NCBI GenBank assembly: GCA_022711595.1
Contig: JAKLET010000003.1
Coordinates: 1 to 64,000, forward strand
Source: Deltaproteobacteria bacterium
GTDB lineage: Bacteria > Desulfobacterota > Syntrophorhabdia > Syntrophorhabdales > Syntrophorhabdaceae
Length of the DNA: 64,000 nucleotides
Direction of reading: 5' to 3'
Part shown: in pieces, positions 37,643 through 55,984 of the stretch
Layout: every line of letters begins with the position of its first letter
Numbering within the stretch: position 1 is the stretch's first letter
Notes under the pieces: model-generated
Told to the model about the DNA's origin: nothing
Database searches by the model: none
The model's input: only the letters and a program-made list of their open reading frames with translations
Program-made: the position numbers and the translations under genes

Positions 37643-37687
37643 GGGTAATACCGCCGGATCATGAATAGGGTGAAAATATGATATAAT
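37643..37687 (+). promoter_or_regulatory. Candidate regulator site plus -10 box before the second kinase gene
   Basis: GGGTAATACC (37643-37652), set in the wider imperfect palindrome GGGGTAATACCGCC, lies about 34 bases before TATAAT (37682-37687). A half-site-like ATAGGGTG follows at 37665-37672. No good -35 hexamer is present, which fits an activated promoter with a regulator bound near -46. The same ten bases recur at 40134-40143 after the partner response-regulator gene. Confidence 0.5.
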
Positions 37688-37708
37688 GAGAACCGGGTTC
37701 AAACGAAC

Positions 37709-39265
37709 ATGCATACCAGAACGGTTAAGAAGGCAAGACAGTCATTGACGGGGCAAAGAAAAACAGAGAAGGCGCTTTTGAACGCCTTGAAACGTGCCGA
37801 CCGCAAGATCCTGCAGCTGACCGAACTGGACAAACAGCACAAAATGTCCCGGAAAGAGTTTGAAAAAAGAACGTATGAACTCAATGAACGCGTAAAAGAG
37901 CTCAATTGTCTCTACACCATATCGAGCATCGTTGAAAAAGAAGGCGCCACCCTCGAAGAGATATTACAGAAGACCGTCGATATCATCCCTGATGCCTGGC
38001 AGTATCCTGCGATAACGAGGGGTCGCATTGTTCTCGGGGAACGCACCTTCTTGAGTGAAGATTTCGTCGAAACCAGGTGGAAACAGTCGCAGAAGATCGT
38101 TGTGCATGGAAGGAGTGCGGGGCAATTGGAGGTCTTCTATGCGGAAAAAAGACCCCATGCCGATGAGGGGCCATTTCTCAAGGAAGAGAGGAGCCTCATA
38201 AACGTCATTGCCGAACGCATCGGAGAGATAGTAGAGCGCAAGTCCGCGCAGGAGGCCCTTCTGGAAAGTGAGTCGAAGAACCGTGCCCTCCTGGAGGCTA
38301 TTCCGGACCTTATGTTCCAGATTGACGACGCCGGTAAGATACTCGGCTTGCATACAGGCAGTTTTATCCAGCTGAAGAACCTGGATGAGGAATTCGTCGG
38401 GAGGAGCGTCTATTTTTTGTCCGATGAAAAGAGGTTTTTACCGAAGAGGGTCCTTGACCAGGTGATGACCTGCGCCAGGCAGTCCATAATTTCGGGGAAA
38501 CCGCAGATATTTGAACGCCATATGTCACTGGGGGGTGAAACGCGCGCCTTTGAGGTCCGCATGGTTTCATCAGGGGCGAATAAGGTGCTCGGGATCGTGC
38601 GTGATATTACGAGACGAAAAAGGCTTGAAAGGGAAATCCTCGAAATTAGCGGCAGGGAACAACGCAGGATCGGCCAGGACCTTCACGACAGTCTTTGCCA
38701 GCATCTTGCCGGTATCGGTTTTATGGGAAAGGTGCTGGAAAGAAAGGTTTCTACCAGCCAGCCTGTTGAACCGGTCGATGTGAGTGAGATCGTGGAGCTC
38801 ATCGATCAGGCGATCACATTGACGAGGGGGTTCGCGCGCGGTCTCAATCCCGTGAGGCTCGAGGCCGACGGGCTCATGCTGGCCCTTACGGAACTGGCTT
38901 CGAACGTGGAAAAGCTGTTCGGGATCACCTGCGGTCTTGAATATAAGGACCCCGTCCTTATCGGGGACAACGCAGTAGCGACACATCTTTACAGGATAGC
39001 GCAGGAAGCCTTGAATAATGCCATAAAACATGGTAAGGCAGATAAAGTGACCATCGCCATGAAACAGGAAGGTGAAGCATGCTTGCTGACGGTGGAAGAT
39101 GACGGGCTCGGGATAGGCAATACGTTGAGCCATGGAAAGGGCATGGGGCTCAACATCATGCAGTACAGGGCCTCCATGATCGGTGCCGTTCTGGATATAA
39201 GGAACCGTGAAAGCGGCGGAACCGTCATAAGCTGCGCATTTGCCAACAGGGTCACACCTTATTAA
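37709..39265 (+). CDS. Soluble histidine kinase, GAF-like/PAS/HisKA_3
   Basis: The 518-residue protein has no membrane span. A coiled coil (about 1-72) is followed by a GAF-like region (about 72-185, ELNCLYTISSIVE), a PAS domain (about 190-305) and the NarL-type dimerisation motif GREQRRIGQDLHDSLCQHL (about 315-333). The ATPase domain has AQEALNNAIKHG and EDDGLGIG. It is a cytoplasmic sensor kinase whose partner is the response regulator 50 bases downstream. Confidence 0.88.
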   Translation: MHTRTVKKARQSLTGQRKTEKALLNALKRADRKILQLTELDKQHKMSRKEFEKRTYELNERVKELNCLYTISSIVEKEGATLEEILQKTVDIIPDAWQYPAITRGRIVLGERTFLSEDFVETRWKQSQKIVVHGRSAGQLEVFYAEKRPHADEGPFLKEERSLINVIAERIGEIVERKSAQEALLESESKNRALLEAIPDLMFQIDDAGKILGLHTGSFIQLKNLDEEFVGRSVYFLSDEKRFLPKRVLDQVMTCARQSIISGKPQIFERHMSLGGETRAFEVRMVSSGANKVLGIVRDITRRKRLEREILEISGREQRRIGQDLHDSLCQHLAGIGFMGKVLERKVSTSQPVEPVDVSEIVELIDQAITLTRGFARGLNPVRLEADGLMLALTELASNVEKLFGITCGLEYKDPVLIGDNAVATHLYRIAQEALNNAIKHGKADKVTIAMKQEGEACLLTVEDDGLGIGNTLSHGKGMGLNIMQYRASMIGAVLDIRNRESGGTVISCAFANRVTPY

Positions 39266-39315
39266 CGGTCCATGGAACATGACGATTGTTTTTAAAGAAT
39301 AAACGGAGGATGACA

Positions 39316-39969
39316 GTGTCAAAAAGAAAGGTATTGATCGTGGACGATCACCCGATACTCCGTAAAGGATTGACGCTCCTTATCAATCAGGAGCCGGACC
39401 TTATCGTCTGCGCAGAAGCGGAGCATGCCCAGATGGCACTGGATGTCATCGACAGCGTGTCGCCTGATATGGCCATCGTTGATATCTCGCTCCCGGGTAT
39501 AGACGGCATCGAGCTTATCAAGATGCTCAGGCTTCGTCATAAGGACCTGCCGGTCCTTGTCGTTTCCATGCATGATGAGGCCCTCTACGCCGAGCGTTCA
39601 TTGCGGGCCGGCGCGCGGGGCTACATAATGAAACAGGAGGCCCTGGAGAAGGTGCTTGTGGCGATCAGGAAGGTCCTAGATGGTGAGATCTTTGTTAGCG
39701 AACGGGTCACCACCAAGATGCTCGAGAAGTTTGTTTCCACCGAGGGCATCAGGGAAACCACCTCCCCCATTGATCTTTTGAGCAACCGCGAGCTTACGGT
39801 TTTCAGACTCATCGGTCAGGGTCACAAGACGCGTCAGATAGCGGAAAAGCTTCACCTCAGCATAAAGACCGTTGAATCGTACCGGGCCCATATCAAGGAC
39901 AAACTGAAGCTTACAGACGGTACGGACCTTTTGAAATATGCCATCCAGTGGACCCAGACCAGTCCGTGA
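39316..39969 (+). CDS. NarL/FixJ-type response regulator
   Basis: The 217-residue protein has VLIVDDHPILRKGL, phospho-acceptor Asp56 (MAIVDISLPG) and Lys in YIMKQE. The LuxR-type DNA-binding domain (about 150-210) has LSNRELTVFRLIGQG and SIKTVESYRAHIKDKLKL. GTG 39316 is chosen because GGAGG (39305-39309) is 6 bases away; ATG 39310 would sit on the ribosome-binding site. It forms a pair with the kinase at 37709. Palindromes upstream of the kinase and downstream of this gene may be its targets. Confidence 0.92.
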   Translation: MSKRKVLIVDDHPILRKGLTLLINQEPDLIVCAEAEHAQMALDVIDSVSPDMAIVDISLPGIDGIELIKMLRLRHKDLPVLVVSMHDEALYAERSLRAGARGYIMKQEALEKVLVAIRKVLDGEIFVSERVTTKMLEKFVSTEGIRETTSPIDLLSNRELTVFRLIGQGHKTRQIAEKLHLSIKTVESYRAHIKDKLKLTDGTDLLKYAIQWTQTSP

Positions 39970-40130
39970 GCCCCGGCAAAGATAGTGCTATCCCCGAGTC
40001 GTTACATACCGCACCGTAAATCGTAAGAGCTTTTTAGAATCTTTTATATTCCGGGCAAGAACAGCCGCAAGTTGTAAGTGCGCTCCCATGAAGGGGAAGA
40101 ACCACTATCGGGAAAAACACTATACTCATA

Positions 40131-40147
40131 ATAGGGTAATACCCTAT
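40131..40147. promoter_or_regulatory. Perfect 17-bp palindrome ATAGGGTAATACCCTAT
   Basis: The two 8-base arms are exact reverse complements around one central base. It shares GGGTAATACC with the site before the kinase gene at 37709. A -10-like TAAATT (40173-40178) lies 34 bases from its centre, the same distance as at the other site. It precedes the amidotransferase remnant and, further on, gdhA. Candidate operator for the adjacent LuxR-type regulator; NrpR is the other candidate. Confidence 0.5.
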
Positions 40148-40241
40148 ACCAAAAACATCCCAACCCTGATTGTAAATTTTGTTTTTATCGGGTTTCATAT
40201 AGTAGCTTTTTCTCATAACAAAAAGGAGAAAAGAGAAAATC

Positions 40242-40457
40242 ATGGAAAAGAGGCTTGTTCTTATTCAACGCGGAAAGTCGGACGATACCGGGCCGCTTCG
40301 GGAAGCCCTAAGTAATTTCGGCTGGAGTCTTGAAACTATTGAGTTGTCTGATGGTGAGCCGTTGCCGAGGAGCCTGGAGAACATTGACGGGCTGATCATC
40401 ACCGGCAGCGATATCAATGTCTACGAGCAGAGTTCGGCGCCGCTGACAGTCTACTGA
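40242..40457 (+). pseudogene. Class I glutamine amidotransferase remnant (N-terminal part)
   Basis: The 71-residue frame reads RLVLIQRGKSDDTGPLREAL, then LSDGEPLPRSLENIDGLIITGSDINVYEQ. This matches the start of GMP-synthase-like class I amidotransferases, which run about 230 residues. The frame stops before the catalytic cysteine loop, and no continuation was found in the 190 bases up to gdhA. RBS AAAAGGAG precedes ATG 40242. It is probably a truncated gene. Confidence 0.6.
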
Positions 40458-40649: not shown

Positions 40650-42008
40650 ATGTCAGTGATAAGCGATGTAATAGAAAAGATCAAAAAACAGGATCCTCAC
40701 GAATTTGAGTTCCATCAAGCCACAGAAGAAGTCCTGGATAGTCTGGAGGCGACGGTAAAAAAACATCCGGAATTCGTGAAGGCAAAGATATATGAGCGGA
40801 TCGTTGAGCCCGACAGGGTCATAATGTTCCGAGTCCCGTGGGTTGATGACAAGGGAGAAGTGAACGTCAACAGGGGTTTTCGCATACAGTATAACAACGC
40901 GATAGGGCCTTACAAGGGCGGTACCCGCTTTCACCCTTCAGTGAACCTGGGCATACTCAAATTCCTCGGATTCGAACAGATATTCAAGAATTCGTTGACG
41001 ACCCTTCCGATGGGGGGCGCAAAAGGCGGCAGCGATTTTGACCCGAAGGGAAAATCAGACACAGAGGTCATGCGTTTCTGTCATGCCTATATGCTGGAGC
41101 TTTTCAGGCATATAGGTCCAGACTGTGATGTGCCTGCCGGTGATATCGGTGTCGGCGGTCGTGAGATCGGGTATATGTATGGAATGTATAAGAAGATCAT
41201 GAACGACCATACGGGTGTTCTCACGGGCAAGGGTCTTTCATTCGGCGGCAGCCTCATCAGGCCTGAAGCGACGGGTTATGGCTGTGTGTATTTCGCGGCC
41301 GAGATGCTCGCAACACGCGGGCTCGATTTCAAGGGCAAGACAGTAGCCATAAGCGGTTCCGGTAATGTTGCCCAGTTTGCTGTTGAAAAGGTGAACCAGC
41401 TCGGCGGGAAGGTCGTCACCCTGTGCGATTCAAGCTCGACGATCATCGATGACCAGGGCATATCGGGTGAAAAATGCGGCTACGTTATGGACCTCAAGAA
41501 CGTCCAGAGGGGAAGGATAAGCGAGTATGCCGACCGTTTCAATGGTGCTGTGTGCTATATCGGAGAGAGCGTATGGGATGTTATAAAGAGCCAGGGGCTG
41601 AAAATTGACATCGCTCTGCCCTGTGCGACACAGAACGAGATCGACGGAAGCCACGCCGAGGCATTGGTAAAAGGCGGATGCATTTGTGTGGCCGAAGGCT
41701 CGAATATGCCGTCAACACCGGAGGCCGTAAAAGTGTTCCAGGACAATAATCTGTTGTTCGGCCCCGGGAAGGCTGCAAATGCCGGAGGCGTTGCGACATC
41801 CGGTCTGGAAATGTCACAGAACAGCATGAGATTGTTGTGGTCGCGGGAAGAAGTGGACGCCAGGCTCCTCGGGATCATGAAGAGTATCCACAAGTCATGC
41901 CTTGATGCCAGTGAGGCATACGGCAAAAAAGGAGATTACGTTGCAGGCGCGAACATCGCCGGTTTTATGAAGGTTGCAAACGCGATGATGGCCTATGGTG
42001 TCCTTTAA
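40650..42008 (+). CDS. gdhA: Glutamate dehydrogenase (NADP-type)
   Basis: The 452-residue enzyme is of the hexameric bacterial type. It has GPYKGGTRFHPSVNLGILKF, the catalytic-lysine loop TTLPMGGAKGGSDFDPKG, PAGDIGVGGREIGYMYG, and a nucleotide-binding GSGNVAQFAVEKV. It makes glutamate from 2-oxoglutarate and ammonium. The gene for an NrpR-type regulator, a family that represses nitrogen-assimilation genes in methanogens, lies 71 bases downstream on the same strand. Confidence 0.95.
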   Translation: MSVISDVIEKIKKQDPHEFEFHQATEEVLDSLEATVKKHPEFVKAKIYERIVEPDRVIMFRVPWVDDKGEVNVNRGFRIQYNNAIGPYKGGTRFHPSVNLGILKFLGFEQIFKNSLTTLPMGGAKGGSDFDPKGKSDTEVMRFCHAYMLELFRHIGPDCDVPAGDIGVGGREIGYMYGMYKKIMNDHTGVLTGKGLSFGGSLIRPEATGYGCVYFAAEMLATRGLDFKGKTVAISGSGNVAQFAVEKVNQLGGKVVTLCDSSSTIIDDQGISGEKCGYVMDLKNVQRGRISEYADRFNGAVCYIGESVWDVIKSQGLKIDIALPCATQNEIDGSHAEALVKGGCICVAEGSNMPSTPEAVKVFQDNNLLFGPGKAANAGGVATSGLEMSQNSMRLLWSREEVDARLLGIMKSIHKSCLDASEAYGKKGDYVAGANIAGFMKVANAMMAYGVL

Positions 42009-42079: not shown

Positions 42080-43177
42080 ATGAATAAAATCATGTTTGCC
42101 GTTCTCTCCGTTCTCGATAAGGCCGGTGCACCTCTTGGTTCCTGTGACATTGCCTTGCATCTTGGCCGGCAGGGGACCGATCTTTCCGAGAGGACCATCA
42201 GGTATTATCTTAAGCAGCTCGACGACAAGGGCTATACCGTGACGGACGGCAAAAAAGGCAGAAAGATCACCGTCCAGGGACGTCAGGAACTGAAACAGGG
42301 GTATGTTTCGGAAAGGGTGGGTTTTATTATCAACAAGATAAACAATCTCTCTTTTCTTTCAGATTTCGGGCCTGACAATGTGAGAGGAAAAGTGATCCTT
42401 AACGTCACGTTCATTCCAGAAGAAAAACTGCAGCACGCCATAGAGATCCTGGGTGTGGTGCTCCGTTCACCTTATTCGATGAGTGACCGTGCGATAATTG
42501 CGAAGACAGGCCAGAGGCTGGGGAGTATTGTCGTGCCTGACCGCATGGTTGCCGTCGGAACGATGTGCAGCATCACCCTGAATGGCATGTTCCTTAAGCG
42601 CGGCATCCCTGTATCCACAAAACTGGGAGGCCTCGTCGAGGTGATAGACGGAAAACCGGCCCGCTTCACCCAGGTGATCAGTTATGAAGGTTCTTCCGTT
42701 CCCCCGCTCGAGATCCTCATCAGGAGCAGGATGACTGATGTTCTGGGGGCGCTGGAGAACGGGTCAGGGCTCATCCTTGGAAGCTACCGCGAGATACCGG
42801 AAAACAGTATTGCGGACGCGAAAGATGTCCTTGCCAGGATGGCCCGGCACGGTTTCGGCGGTATTGTGCTTTTCGGCCGCTCCGGTGAATCATTTCTCGG
42901 CATTCCGGTCACGGACGGCAAGGCCGGCCTTGTGGTGCTTGGCGGTCTCAATGTGAACGCCGCTCTGGAAGAGGCAGGTGTCAGTAATTCGAGCCAGGCA
43001 ATGGCAACACTCTGCGAGTATCCAATGTTGAGTTCCGTAGAGTCGTTGGAGAAGGCCTATCTTTCGGAGAAGGCCCCGGCACCGCTTTTTATCACGAAAT
43101 ATTTTTCGAGAACGCGGGAAGATGGTGATGACGGTTACTGGTCGGTCTTAAGGGCGCTGAAGCAGACAACCATCTGA
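42080..43177 (+). CDS. nrpR: NrpR-type nitrogen regulator (winged helix plus DUF128 domain)
   Basis: The 365-residue protein has an N-terminal winged helix (about 1-75, with LSERTIRYYLKQLDDKGY). One large NrpR domain (DUF128, about 85-330) contains LGSIVVPDRMVAVGTMCSITLNG and TKLGGLVEVIDGKPARFTQ. In Methanococcus NrpR represses nif, glnA and gdh genes and is released by 2-oxoglutarate. Its place next to gdhA fits that role in a bacterium. GGAGGGG precedes ATG 42080, and TATAAT lies at 42045-42050. Its end overlaps the convergent gene by 43 bases. Confidence 0.85.
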   Translation: MNKIMFAVLSVLDKAGAPLGSCDIALHLGRQGTDLSERTIRYYLKQLDDKGYTVTDGKKGRKITVQGRQELKQGYVSERVGFIINKINNLSFLSDFGPDNVRGKVILNVTFIPEEKLQHAIEILGVVLRSPYSMSDRAIIAKTGQRLGSIVVPDRMVAVGTMCSITLNGMFLKRGIPVSTKLGGLVEVIDGKPARFTQVISYEGSSVPPLEILIRSRMTDVLGALENGSGLILGSYREIPENSIADAKDVLARMARHGFGGIVLFGRSGESFLGIPVTDGKAGLVVLGGLNVNAALEEAGVSNSSQAMATLCEYPMLSSVESLEKAYLSEKAPAPLFITKYFSRTREDGDDGYWSVLRALKQTTI

Positions 43178-45741
43178 GTTACGATATCGGCGAACAACCT
43201 CATTTCATCTTTTTCCGTGTCAACAACCGTTACGATCCCTTCATACCGGGCGCTTTCAGGAACAAGGATGGATAGCAGGTTGTATTTTCTGTCGAGGATC
43301 GCCCGATTGAATTGGGAACCTTTATTATCGGGGAAGATGGCCACATAGAAGATCCCCGTTTCGACAAGGTCCTGGAAAAAATGTGTTCCGAAGGAGAGTT
43401 CGGGCATCACATTGCCCATGCTGTGGGCCAGTTCGACCAGGACCGCGATATTATTTATTTCAGAGAAACGAACGGGGACACCCAGTGATGGAGTGGTGGT
43501 TCCCCATCTGCCGGGACCTATGAGTATCGTCGGAAGCTTTTCCTGACCCGGTATCTGCCTGTTCACCCGGCCGATGAGGCGGGCTATATCATATTTCTCA
43601 GACAACGACAATGCTCCGTAGCCTTCAGGATCGACAAAGATGATCCGCTTGATCTGCTCCGTGATATTGCTGCCCATGAAATTACCTGATGACTGGAAAA
43701 GGACCTTCCTTGCAGGTATGTTCCGGGGTATCCTTACCCTTTTTTCCTTACCTTTTGTCTGGAGCGGTCTGCACTGCACGAGGTTGATCTGAAAGGTGTC
43801 CCTGCCGGTGAAATTGATCGTGAATTCGATATCAACAGGATAATTGTAGTGGGATTCGAGGGTCTTGAGCATTTTATTCATGATCCCGGGAAGAGGTGTG
43901 TCGGACATTAGCCTGTCAAATGTCAGGGTCCATGTTTCCTTCACACCAAGCCCCCTCTCCTGCATGAATTGCCTTGCTTCATGGTCCTCCACGGCTATCA
44001 GCCCCCTGTCGGCCTTCATCCCGCTGGTTATGATATCGTTCACGGGAACCGTTTCAAGGGTGTTTTTTTCAATGTTGAGGACATCGGCATTATGCTGTGA
44101 ATATTTTTTTTTGTCGCCTGGCCCGGAATGGGGCCTCATGAGCGGGGCATCAAGGGCGACAATGCGTGGATAATCATGTTCTACGCGATTAACGGCCCTT
44201 GTGCCCAGGCCGGCCACAAGCCGGAGCATGCCTGCCCTGGGGTCCATGTCGCGTCTCCAGACAAAGGTATTGTATGAGATTCCCACTCCGGCAAGATCGG
44301 GATAAAAGAACCGGTCACGATAGGACCCGGACACCCTTTGCACCAGCAGGGCCATCTGTTCGTCCTGTTGATCGAGCCCTCTCTGGAGTCGATAAGCCAG
44401 GGCATCTTCGTTCATGGTGCTGGCGAAAATGTGACGGACATATTCGATAAACTGTTTGTAACGCTGCTCGGGCGCGCCCTGGTTGACGCAGAATATGCTT
44501 TCATATTTACCCGCGAAGGCGTTCCCGAAGGCATCTTCCAGGAGACTGCTTGACCGGAGTATTATGGGTGATTGTCCGAAATACTCAATGAGGCGCCAGA
44601 ACTGTTCTTCGATCTCATCGGGAAATGATCCTTCCAGCATATTCTCGCGCAATGTGCGGGCCACCGCGAAATATCCCTCTTTTGTTTTTTGTTCCATGCG
44701 CAGCTTCCACCATCCGTTTTCCACGAGATAGGTGTAGAAGACGTCGGAGCCGATGAAAAACGAATCATGGGGCTCCAGATAGTTTTGCCAGTCAACAGAT
44801 GCGTCCGATGAGAGTATCTTGCGCGCCAGAAGCATACCCACTGTTTTTCCGCCGATGTAGCCGGTCCCGATCAGACGTGTCTTTATGGCGATAAGATCTT
44901 CAAGGGCTAAGTGTTTTTTGGCAAGGGTCAGTATCCTTTCCTCGCGGCCGATCATGATCTTGCAGAGGTGGTCGAGTACGGCCTCTTTTTCTTCCCTGCC
45001 GACGTCCCGGCCCATGAGCTCTTCGACGCGGATAAAAAGCCTGTCCCAGTGATCAAGGTTCCTTTTTGCGAGCTCCATCCCTTTTCCGGAGATCCGCGTG
45101 AGAAGGCGGCCCGTATCGGCGCTGCTTGTGACAGGGACAAACCTGTCTTCTTTCCGGAGGTGCGGCAGGAACATTGTCGGTGAATGCCTTCCACGGACCT
45201 TCAGGGGGTGGACAAAGATGTTCTTATCGACGTTGTAAACATCGATAAGAACCTGGGTGGTCTCCCGGATGCGCGCAACGGTCTTGAAAGAATGGTTGTC
45301 TCGCAGAAGCGCGAAATATGCAATAGTGTTGAGCTGATACAGATATGGACAGGATATCACGAAGAAATTGCCGATCATCAGGTCGGTTGCCCAGGCCGAC
45401 AGGAGATCGGAAAGGGAATCGAAAACGTAATAAACGTCAACCCCTTCTTCGGTTATGATGTTGTATACCTGTGAAGTGAAAGACTCGAAACCGCTTCGTG
45501 CGTCAAGGACATGTACCCGGACGTTGCTGTTGCCTTCTATAATGGGTTGATGGCCGGCGAAACGCATATATACGATCTTTCTGCGTTCCTTGATCGCCCG
45601 TTCGATAAAAGGCCTCGCGAAGAACAGGTAGTCGTTAATGGAATCCACCTGCCAGACGACATTGTCACCACTTCTCAGACCATCGATGATGTCGTCGATG
45701 CCTTTGAGTCCCGTGCTCTCCCGTGTAAGTATCCTCGCCAT
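43135..45741 (-). CDS. KaiC-like domain fused to PEP synthase/PPDK-like ATP-grasp region
   Basis: The protein is 868 residues. The first about 210 residues resemble a KaiC/Rad55 domain (STGLKGIDDIIDGLRSGDNVV) but lack the Walker A lysine. The rest is the ATP-binding half of PEP synthase or pyruvate phosphate dikinase, with GGKTVGMLLARKIL, SPIILRSSSLLEDAFGNAFAG and a C-terminal VLIGPGRWG-like segment. The phosphohistidine and PEP-binding domains are not seen. It may be a regulatory or novel phosphotransferase rather than a gluconeogenic enzyme. Confidence 0.75.
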   Translation of the reverse strand: MARILTRESTGLKGIDDIIDGLRSGDNVVWQVDSINDYLFFARPFIERAIKERRKIVYMRFAGHQPIIEGNSNVRVHVLDARSGFESFTSQVYNIITEEGVDVYYVFDSLSDLLSAWATDLMIGNFFVISCPYLYQLNTIAYFALLRDNHSFKTVARIRETTQVLIDVYNVDKNIFVHPLKVRGRHSPTMFLPHLRKEDRFVPVTSSADTGRLLTRISGKGMELAKRNLDHWDRLFIRVEELMGRDVGREEKEAVLDHLCKIMIGREERILTLAKKHLALEDLIAIKTRLIGTGYIGGKTVGMLLARKILSSDASVDWQNYLEPHDSFFIGSDVFYTYLVENGWWKLRMEQKTKEGYFAVARTLRENMLEGSFPDEIEEQFWRLIEYFGQSPIILRSSSLLEDAFGNAFAGKYESIFCVNQGAPEQRYKQFIEYVRHIFASTMNEDALAYRLQRGLDQQDEQMALLVQRVSGSYRDRFFYPDLAGVGISYNTFVWRRDMDPRAGMLRLVAGLGTRAVNRVEHDYPRIVALDAPLMRPHSGPGDKKKYSQHNADVLNIEKNTLETVPVNDIITSGMKADRGLIAVEDHEARQFMQERGLGVKETWTLTFDRLMSDTPLPGIMNKMLKTLESHYNYPVDIEFTINFTGRDTFQINLVQCRPLQTKGKEKRVRIPRNIPARKVLFQSSGNFMGSNITEQIKRIIFVDPEGYGALSLSEKYDIARLIGRVNRQIPGQEKLPTILIGPGRWGTTTPSLGVPVRFSEINNIAVLVELAHSMGNVMPELSFGTHFFQDLVETGIFYVAIFPDNKGSQFNRAILDRKYNLLSILVPESARYEGIVTVVDTEKDEMRLFADIVTQMVVCFSALKTDQ

Positions 45742-55657: not shown

Positions 55658-55984
55658 ATGAAAAAGGGAATCTTGATAATACTCGCTTTTGCAATATTGT
55701 TTGTGACGTTGTTGCCGGCGATGAGTTACGCGAGAGGTCCGGGTTACCATCATGGATGGGGGCCAAGGCACCACTATCGGGGTCCTGGTCCTGGTTATGG
55801 TTGGGGCATTGCCGGAGCGGCCGTTGGCGGACTTGTTCTTGGTACGATAATAGGGAGTACCATATCCGGGCCGGCATACGTGGAACCCCGGCGTGTGTAT
55901 GTGGCGCCGCCTCCTCCCCCTCCACCTCCGAGGGTATACTATTATTATCCACCGCCCAAAAGGGTATACGTATACCCGTACTGA
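55658..55984 (+). CDS. Secreted glycine- and proline-rich protein
   Basis: The 108-residue protein has a signal peptide (about 1-24, ending SYA). A Gly/His/Tyr-rich stretch and a glycine-zipper span (AAVGGLVLGTIIGSTI) follow, then a tail of eight prolines and Tyr/Pro/Val repeats. Similar small proteins are common in proteobacteria and of unknown role, perhaps linked to the outer membrane. ATG 55658 follows TGGAGGGG. A strong terminator lies just downstream. Confidence 0.82.
   Translation: MKKGILIILAFAILFVTLLPAMSYARGPGYHHGWGPRHHYRGPGPGYGWGIAGAAVGGLVLGTIIGSTISGPAYVEPRRVYVAPPPPPPPPRVYYYYPPPKRVYVYPY

Follow-up and report, generated by a model that had tools for sequence, protein, structure and literature searches.

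A conserved pair of palindromes upstream of gdhA as the probable operator of a neighbouring NarL-type response regulator

The window analysed here, a 64,000-nucleotide stretch of a deltaproteobacterial genome, encodes in succession a sensor histidine kinase, a response regulator, a small protein, a glutamate dehydrogenase (gdhA) and an NrpR-like protein, followed by a convergent PPDK-like gene (Table 1). In the regions first compared, the order kinase–regulator–gdhA–nrpR was kept in 17 of 19 relatives; in one of the other two the contig ends inside gdhA, and in the second (G003) nrpR lies elsewhere. The nearest orthologues of the regulator come from Syntrophorhabdus and Deltaproteobacteria bins, and a kinase, of the HisKA_3 type in the window, adjoins the regulator in all 30 regulator-bearing family genomes. 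No structured RNA was found between 36000 and 43500 (Rfam, E ≤ 1), and a plasmid search with the promoter as query returned no match. This bacterium has two NrpR-type regulators, one encoded in the window at 42080–43177 and one at G000:C57:84243-85193; several family genomes have none.

Table 1. Features of the kinase–regulator–gdhA locus and the basis of each assignment
Feature	Position	Strand	Basis
Sensor histidine kinase, partner of the regulator	37709-39265	+	PAS_4, HisKA_3, HATPase_c
LuxR/NarL-type response regulator, proposed ligand of the tandem sites	39316-39969	+	Response_reg and GerE
Operator site 1 (putative), ATCGGGAAAAACACTAT, centre ~-91	40107-40123	.	Rank 2 of window; conserved partner of site 2
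Operator site 2 (putative), the palindrome of the earlier note, ATAGGGTAATACCCTAT, centre ~-67	40131-40147	.	Rank 1 of window; unique in genome; conserved
-35 element TTGTAA	40170-40175	+	Family alignment
-10 region TTTCATATAGT, exact hexamer uncertain	40193-40203	+	TTTTATA-like block in most genomes
Small gene, 71 aa, amidotransferase-like N-terminal part	40242-40457	+	dN/dS; weak NCBIfam match
gdhA, glutamate dehydrogenase, proposed target gene	40650-42008	+	Domain and NCBIfam matches
nrpR-like gene; probably same transcription unit as gdhA; not the tandem-site ligand	42080-43177	+	Domain matches; NrpR distribution
PPDK-like gene, convergent	43135-45741		
Second decamer copy, chance match, outside the system	37643-37652	.	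Genome count, alignment, site rank

The earlier note had drawn attention to the palindrome ATAGGGTAATACCCTAT and to a copy of its ten-base core, GGGTAATACC, upstream of the kinase gene, and had read the two as a shared motif bracketing the kinase/regulator pair. Both are present as described, the palindrome being perfect, with 8-bp arms around one central base, and the decamer standing at 37643–37652. The -10-like hexamers TATAAT (37682–37687) and TAAATT (40173–40178) likewise start about 34 bases past the respective centres, but TAAATT is not conserved as a -10 element, since it overlaps a conserved -35 element. The decamer has six matches in the 3.55-Mb genome, exactly as many as its reversed control, and was discarded as a genome-wide motif; perfect palindromes with arms of at least 8 and a spacer of 0–1 number two in the window, approximately the random expectation. 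A site matrix built from relatives alone, with the window left out, ranked 40131 first and 40107 second of 63,984 window positions, and the best 17-mer at 37643 came in at rank 2396. Upstream of the kinase gene, alignment with five relatives (G011 giving only partial cover, its stretch beginning at its contig end) revealed a conserved TATAAT and no decamer. The scan of relatives thus bore out the palindrome, conserved before gdhA, but not the copy at 37643, and with no conserved site upstream of the kinase in the relatives aligned the suggested autoregulation of its promoter is not supported. We give almost no credence to a reading in which the kinase gene and the gdhA unit are jointly controlled through a common decamer: the decamers are identical and lie at similar distances from -10-like hexamers, but they occur at chance frequency, and the copy at 37643 is neither conserved nor ranked as a site. 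Judged by sequence comparison, that copy is a chance match, different in kind from the palindrome. The case illustrates that a palindrome may look ordinary by its frequency and still be functional, when 2.5 kb away an identical copy of its core is not. Another perfect palindrome, the 16-bp GGGTATACGTATACCC, occupies 55962–55977 and seems, on inspection by eye, to fall at the 3' terminus of an open frame. The pattern GGGTA-N(0-12)-TACCC, of which the sequence at 55962 is a copy, was tried as an NrpR-like operator and rejected, with 31 places against 43 in the control.

Together with its neighbour at 40107–40123, the sequence at 40131–40147 forms a tandem pair of 17-bp imperfect palindromes, ATAGKG-N5-CCCTAT, 24 bp apart. 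The regulator is present in 30 of 39 family genomes (E ≤ 1e-50), and all 30 have the pair between regulator and gdhA; 29 of them carry gdhA downstream of the regulator without a contig break, whereas the contig of G004 stops before gdhA. When sites were scored without anchoring, the two best of the intergenic stretch lay 23–24 bp apart in 27 of the 30 genomes, and in the same 27 site 2 started exactly 39 nt before a TTG; the exceptions were G002 and G028, which have a weak second site, and G029, in which site 2 is one base short. Arm complementarity reached 60% for site 2 (29 genomes) and 66% for site 1 (26 genomes), with shifted-register rows dropped, compared with a mean of 28% and a maximum of 38% for shuffled site 2. 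Some Syntrophorhabdus genomes have a degenerate site 2. Conservation across the family marks the 40131 palindrome as regulatory DNA, and of the two tandem sites it is the one nearer the promoter.

The TTG belongs to a conserved -35 element, TTGTAA, at a fixed distance from the pair, in a promoter that reads towards the small gene, gdhA and nrpR. Its invariance is partly by construction, because the family rows were anchored on ATTG; conservation of the preceding CC (97% and 100%) is independent of that anchor, as is the distance from site 2 to TTG. Beyond TTG the -35 element is a poor match to the consensus, and a TTTTATA-like block is conserved downstream of it at -10 spacing. If transcription starts about 7 nt after this block, the two sites would be centred near -67 and -91, in place of the single site near -46 proposed earlier. 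An inverted repeat over the -35 element and spacer (CCTGAT/ATCGGG), seen in Syntrophorhabdus, was set aside, as it is 66% paired family-wide, little above other registers.

Genome-wide, ATAGGG-N5-CCCTAT has one mismatch-free copy, at this locus, and one place with a single mismatch, a lone site on the border of a long open frame (C1:16686); a control pattern gave 10. A tandem profile run over whole genomes found its best match at this place in all 30 regulator-bearing genomes, including the three (G011, G023 and G035) left out of its construction, and only weak matches elsewhere in them. In the nine genomes without the regulator, the best matches were weak (E of 0.006 or higher), and three had none at all. 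Because the palindrome is unique in its own genome and the profile is best here in 30 of 30, the regulator looks local, in a scan that single or strongly divergent sites could escape.

The regulator combines a receiver domain (PF00072) with a GerE helix-turn-helix domain (PF00196), both above cut-off, and in an alignment of 12 its acidic pair D10/D11, the phosphoacceptor D56, S84 and K106 are conserved, D10 being replaced by E only in L217. Its best NCBIfam match is MctR (NF052445) at 153 bits, under the family cut-off of 300 bits, and identification as MctR was rejected. Among the nine family genomes without the regulator, a gdhA orthologue occurs in just two, G015 and G019 (G026 carries a relative at 36%), and neither has the pair: they reach tandem sums of 4.1 and 3.6, whereas the 30 genomes with the regulator have a median of 33.8 and none of them falls below 20.4. 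A Fisher test of pair versus regulator (30/0 against 0/2) gives 0.002, ignoring relatedness, for family genomes that are mostly incomplete bins related to one another; part of the association is explained by co-inheritance, since regulator, sites and gdhA adjoin, and the genomes with gdhA but no regulator number just two. In G015 one AT-rich, palindrome-like 17-mer lies 137 nt before gdhA (score 16.2, shuffle P 0.002); it has neither the GGG/CCC core nor a partner and could be either a chance occurrence or a remnant. Instead of the kinase/regulator pair, this genome (L106/L108) has in front of gdhA a gene that by eye is Crp/FNR-like.

NrpR is a nitrogen repressor known from methanogens, and nrpR directly follows gdhA in 17 of the 19 relatives first compared. 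The tandem sites could on these grounds be NrpR operators, at which the protein encoded downstream of gdhA would repress the gdhA unit, and the earlier note had named NrpR as an alternative ligand. We consider this very improbable. NrpR operators of methanogens (GGAA-N6-TTCC or GGTA-N6-TACC) are also short palindromes near nitrogen genes, but their arm, spacer and NrpR linkage are not found here. Five of the 11 genomes examined (G004, G008, G009, G029 and G035; completeness 88–96%) gave no match to the NrpR domain at E ≤ 0.001, and all five carry the pair. Contigs end in or near gdhA in G004, G008, G009 and G035, and the cleanest case is G029, as it has 2.3 kb of sequence past gdhA without nrpR. 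In G003 nrpR sits on a different contig, and the 3.8 kb that follow gdhA contain no copy. G015, conversely, keeps nrpR beside gdhA though it lacks both regulator and pair. This double dissociation, the pair without NrpR and gdhA–nrpR without regulator lacking the pair, argues for the regulator and not NrpR; the position of the pair upstream of the promoter and the palindromes found by regulator homologues in other phyla also count against NrpR. Binding by some other, unlinked regulator seems hardly less improbable, as pair and regulator go together in 30 of 30 genomes, and palindromes also lie beside homologues of the regulator where the surrounding genes differ. On comparative grounds the LuxR-type regulator at 39316 is, as first suggested, much the likeliest ligand.

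Beyond the family we considered seven further loci with regulator and gdhA (L158–L162, L165 and L167; L230 and L231 duplicate L161 and L162). Their tandem-matrix scores were 30.7 for L159, 15.7 for L160, 29.9 for L161, 7.7 for L162, 16.2 for L165 and 33.1 for L167, with one strong and one weak site in L162 and L165. In L158 about 3.8 kb separate the regulator from gdhA, and the two stretches scanned there, with scores of about -2 and -1, contained no clear site. A palindrome scan of 58 loci with a homologous regulator (51–61% identity) and no gdhA found one scoring at least 16 in 13 loci and at least 18 in 8, compared with means of 0.75 (maximum 4) and 0.21 (maximum 3), respectively, for 300 permuted symmetric matrices. 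The other 45 had no site scoring at least 16, and their regulators may bind other sequences. Near-consensus copies adjoin homologous regulators in other phyla without gdhA: in Sulfurimicrobium (L174), ATAGGGGAATCCCCTAT lies at the end of the regulator gene, and in four Verrucomicrobia (L218, L221, L214 and L210) the palindrome is upstream of the operon, at about 2.73–2.79 kb. The L218 operon comprises an AraC-type gene with a PocR domain, kinase, regulator and an acyl-CoA synthetase-like gene, and the position of the palindrome at the head of the Verrucomicrobial operons suggests autoregulation there. Since sites occur beside homologous regulators at loci without gdhA, the palindrome appears to travel with the regulator and not with gdhA.

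Taken together, the pair is very probably the tandem operator of the response regulator at 39316–39969, placed near -67 and -91 and probably activating the gdhA unit; the palindrome at 40131, conserved in the family, would act as a regulator site for the unit towards gdhA much as the earlier note supposed. The phosphorylated regulator, probably as two dimers, would bind at both centres and help RNA polymerase at this promoter, whose -35 element (TTGTAA) is weak, and transcription would then cover the small gene, gdhA and nrpR. The conservation and geometry of the sites, their tie to the regulator gene and their independence of NrpR are observed; we infer physical binding, phosphorylation dependence, activation over repression and the start site from sequence. 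The regulator might instead bind the pair and repress, or switch between repression and activation depending on phosphorylation; the evidence for binding would be identical, and NarL-type regulators can both activate and repress. We regard this as unlikely, because both sites lie upstream of the -35 element at fixed spacing, the usual place for an activator, and that element matches the consensus poorly beyond TTG.

The proposed switch can be set beside several known systems. The GacA-type palindrome, TGTAAG-N6-CTTACA, has likewise 6-bp arms, a 5–6-bp spacer and a NarL-family dimer, but differs in half-site sequence. NarL sites consist of TACYYMT heptamers in 7-2-7 order; DegU is a wide transition-phase regulator, and rocG encodes a catabolic enzyme. 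At the ogt promoter of Escherichia coli, NarL activates transcription from sites at -44.5 and -77.5 and, in a derivative promoter, also from -67.5 (PMC7419079), which resembles the present locus in the NarL-type response regulator, the two upstream sites and the possibility of activation from -67.5, but with sites at -44.5/-77.5 instead of ATAGKG-N5-CCCTAT sites 24 bp apart. In Bacillus subtilis, control of rocG by DegU links a NarL-family regulator to expression of a glutamate dehydrogenase gene (PMC4348106), but here the regulator is encoded beside gdhA and strong sites occur only there. Literature searches on this regulator, its operator and bacterial NrpR operators, judged by titles and abstract openings in a library short of most subscription journals, brought up no account of this system. 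The analysis gives a candidate operator to a subfamily of response regulators, so far uncharacterised, from syntrophs that are mostly uncultured. It also suggests that glutamate dehydrogenase has its own two-component switch in organisms also carrying bacterial NrpR, and provides a 17-bp motif usable to find targets in Planctomycetota, Verrucomicrobiota and others.

The small gene ahead of gdhA is a real gene, given the purifying selection indicated by dN/dS values of mostly 0.06–0.17 among eight Syntrophorhabdus copies (two comparisons gave no value, synonymous sites being saturated). Its product is similar to the start of class I glutamine amidotransferases, over their first 70 residues, but lacks the catalytic part; the NCBIfam match (E 0.0016) stays well under the cut-off. 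Its structure model has a mean pLDDT of 75.8, and a fold search gave no match at E ≤ 0.001, amidotransferases appearing only among weak matches. Two loci outside the 39 family genomes, L162 and L165, also carry an amidotransferase-like small gene. Among 11 genomes outside the genus, nine have by eye an unrelated frame of 76–90 aa in the same place, L043 has an amidotransferase-like gene, and L051 looks broken. A broader idea, which we offer tentatively and hold to be doubtful, is that a cross-phylum NarL-type subfamily kept the operator ATAGGG-N5-CCCTAT while changing targets, and that, in the gdhA branch, interchangeable small proteins encoded in the leader ahead of gdhA, here a truncated protein of amidotransferase type and in other genera an unrelated one of 76–90 aa, tune glutamate dehydrogenase itself; if true, one switch would set both how much of the enzyme is made and how active it is. 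The one 76–90-aa frame searched against Pfam and NCBIfam had no match, and those of L045–L050 and L052–L054, between regulator and gdhA, share a WEMDH...ELRDKFHLLRYYL stretch.
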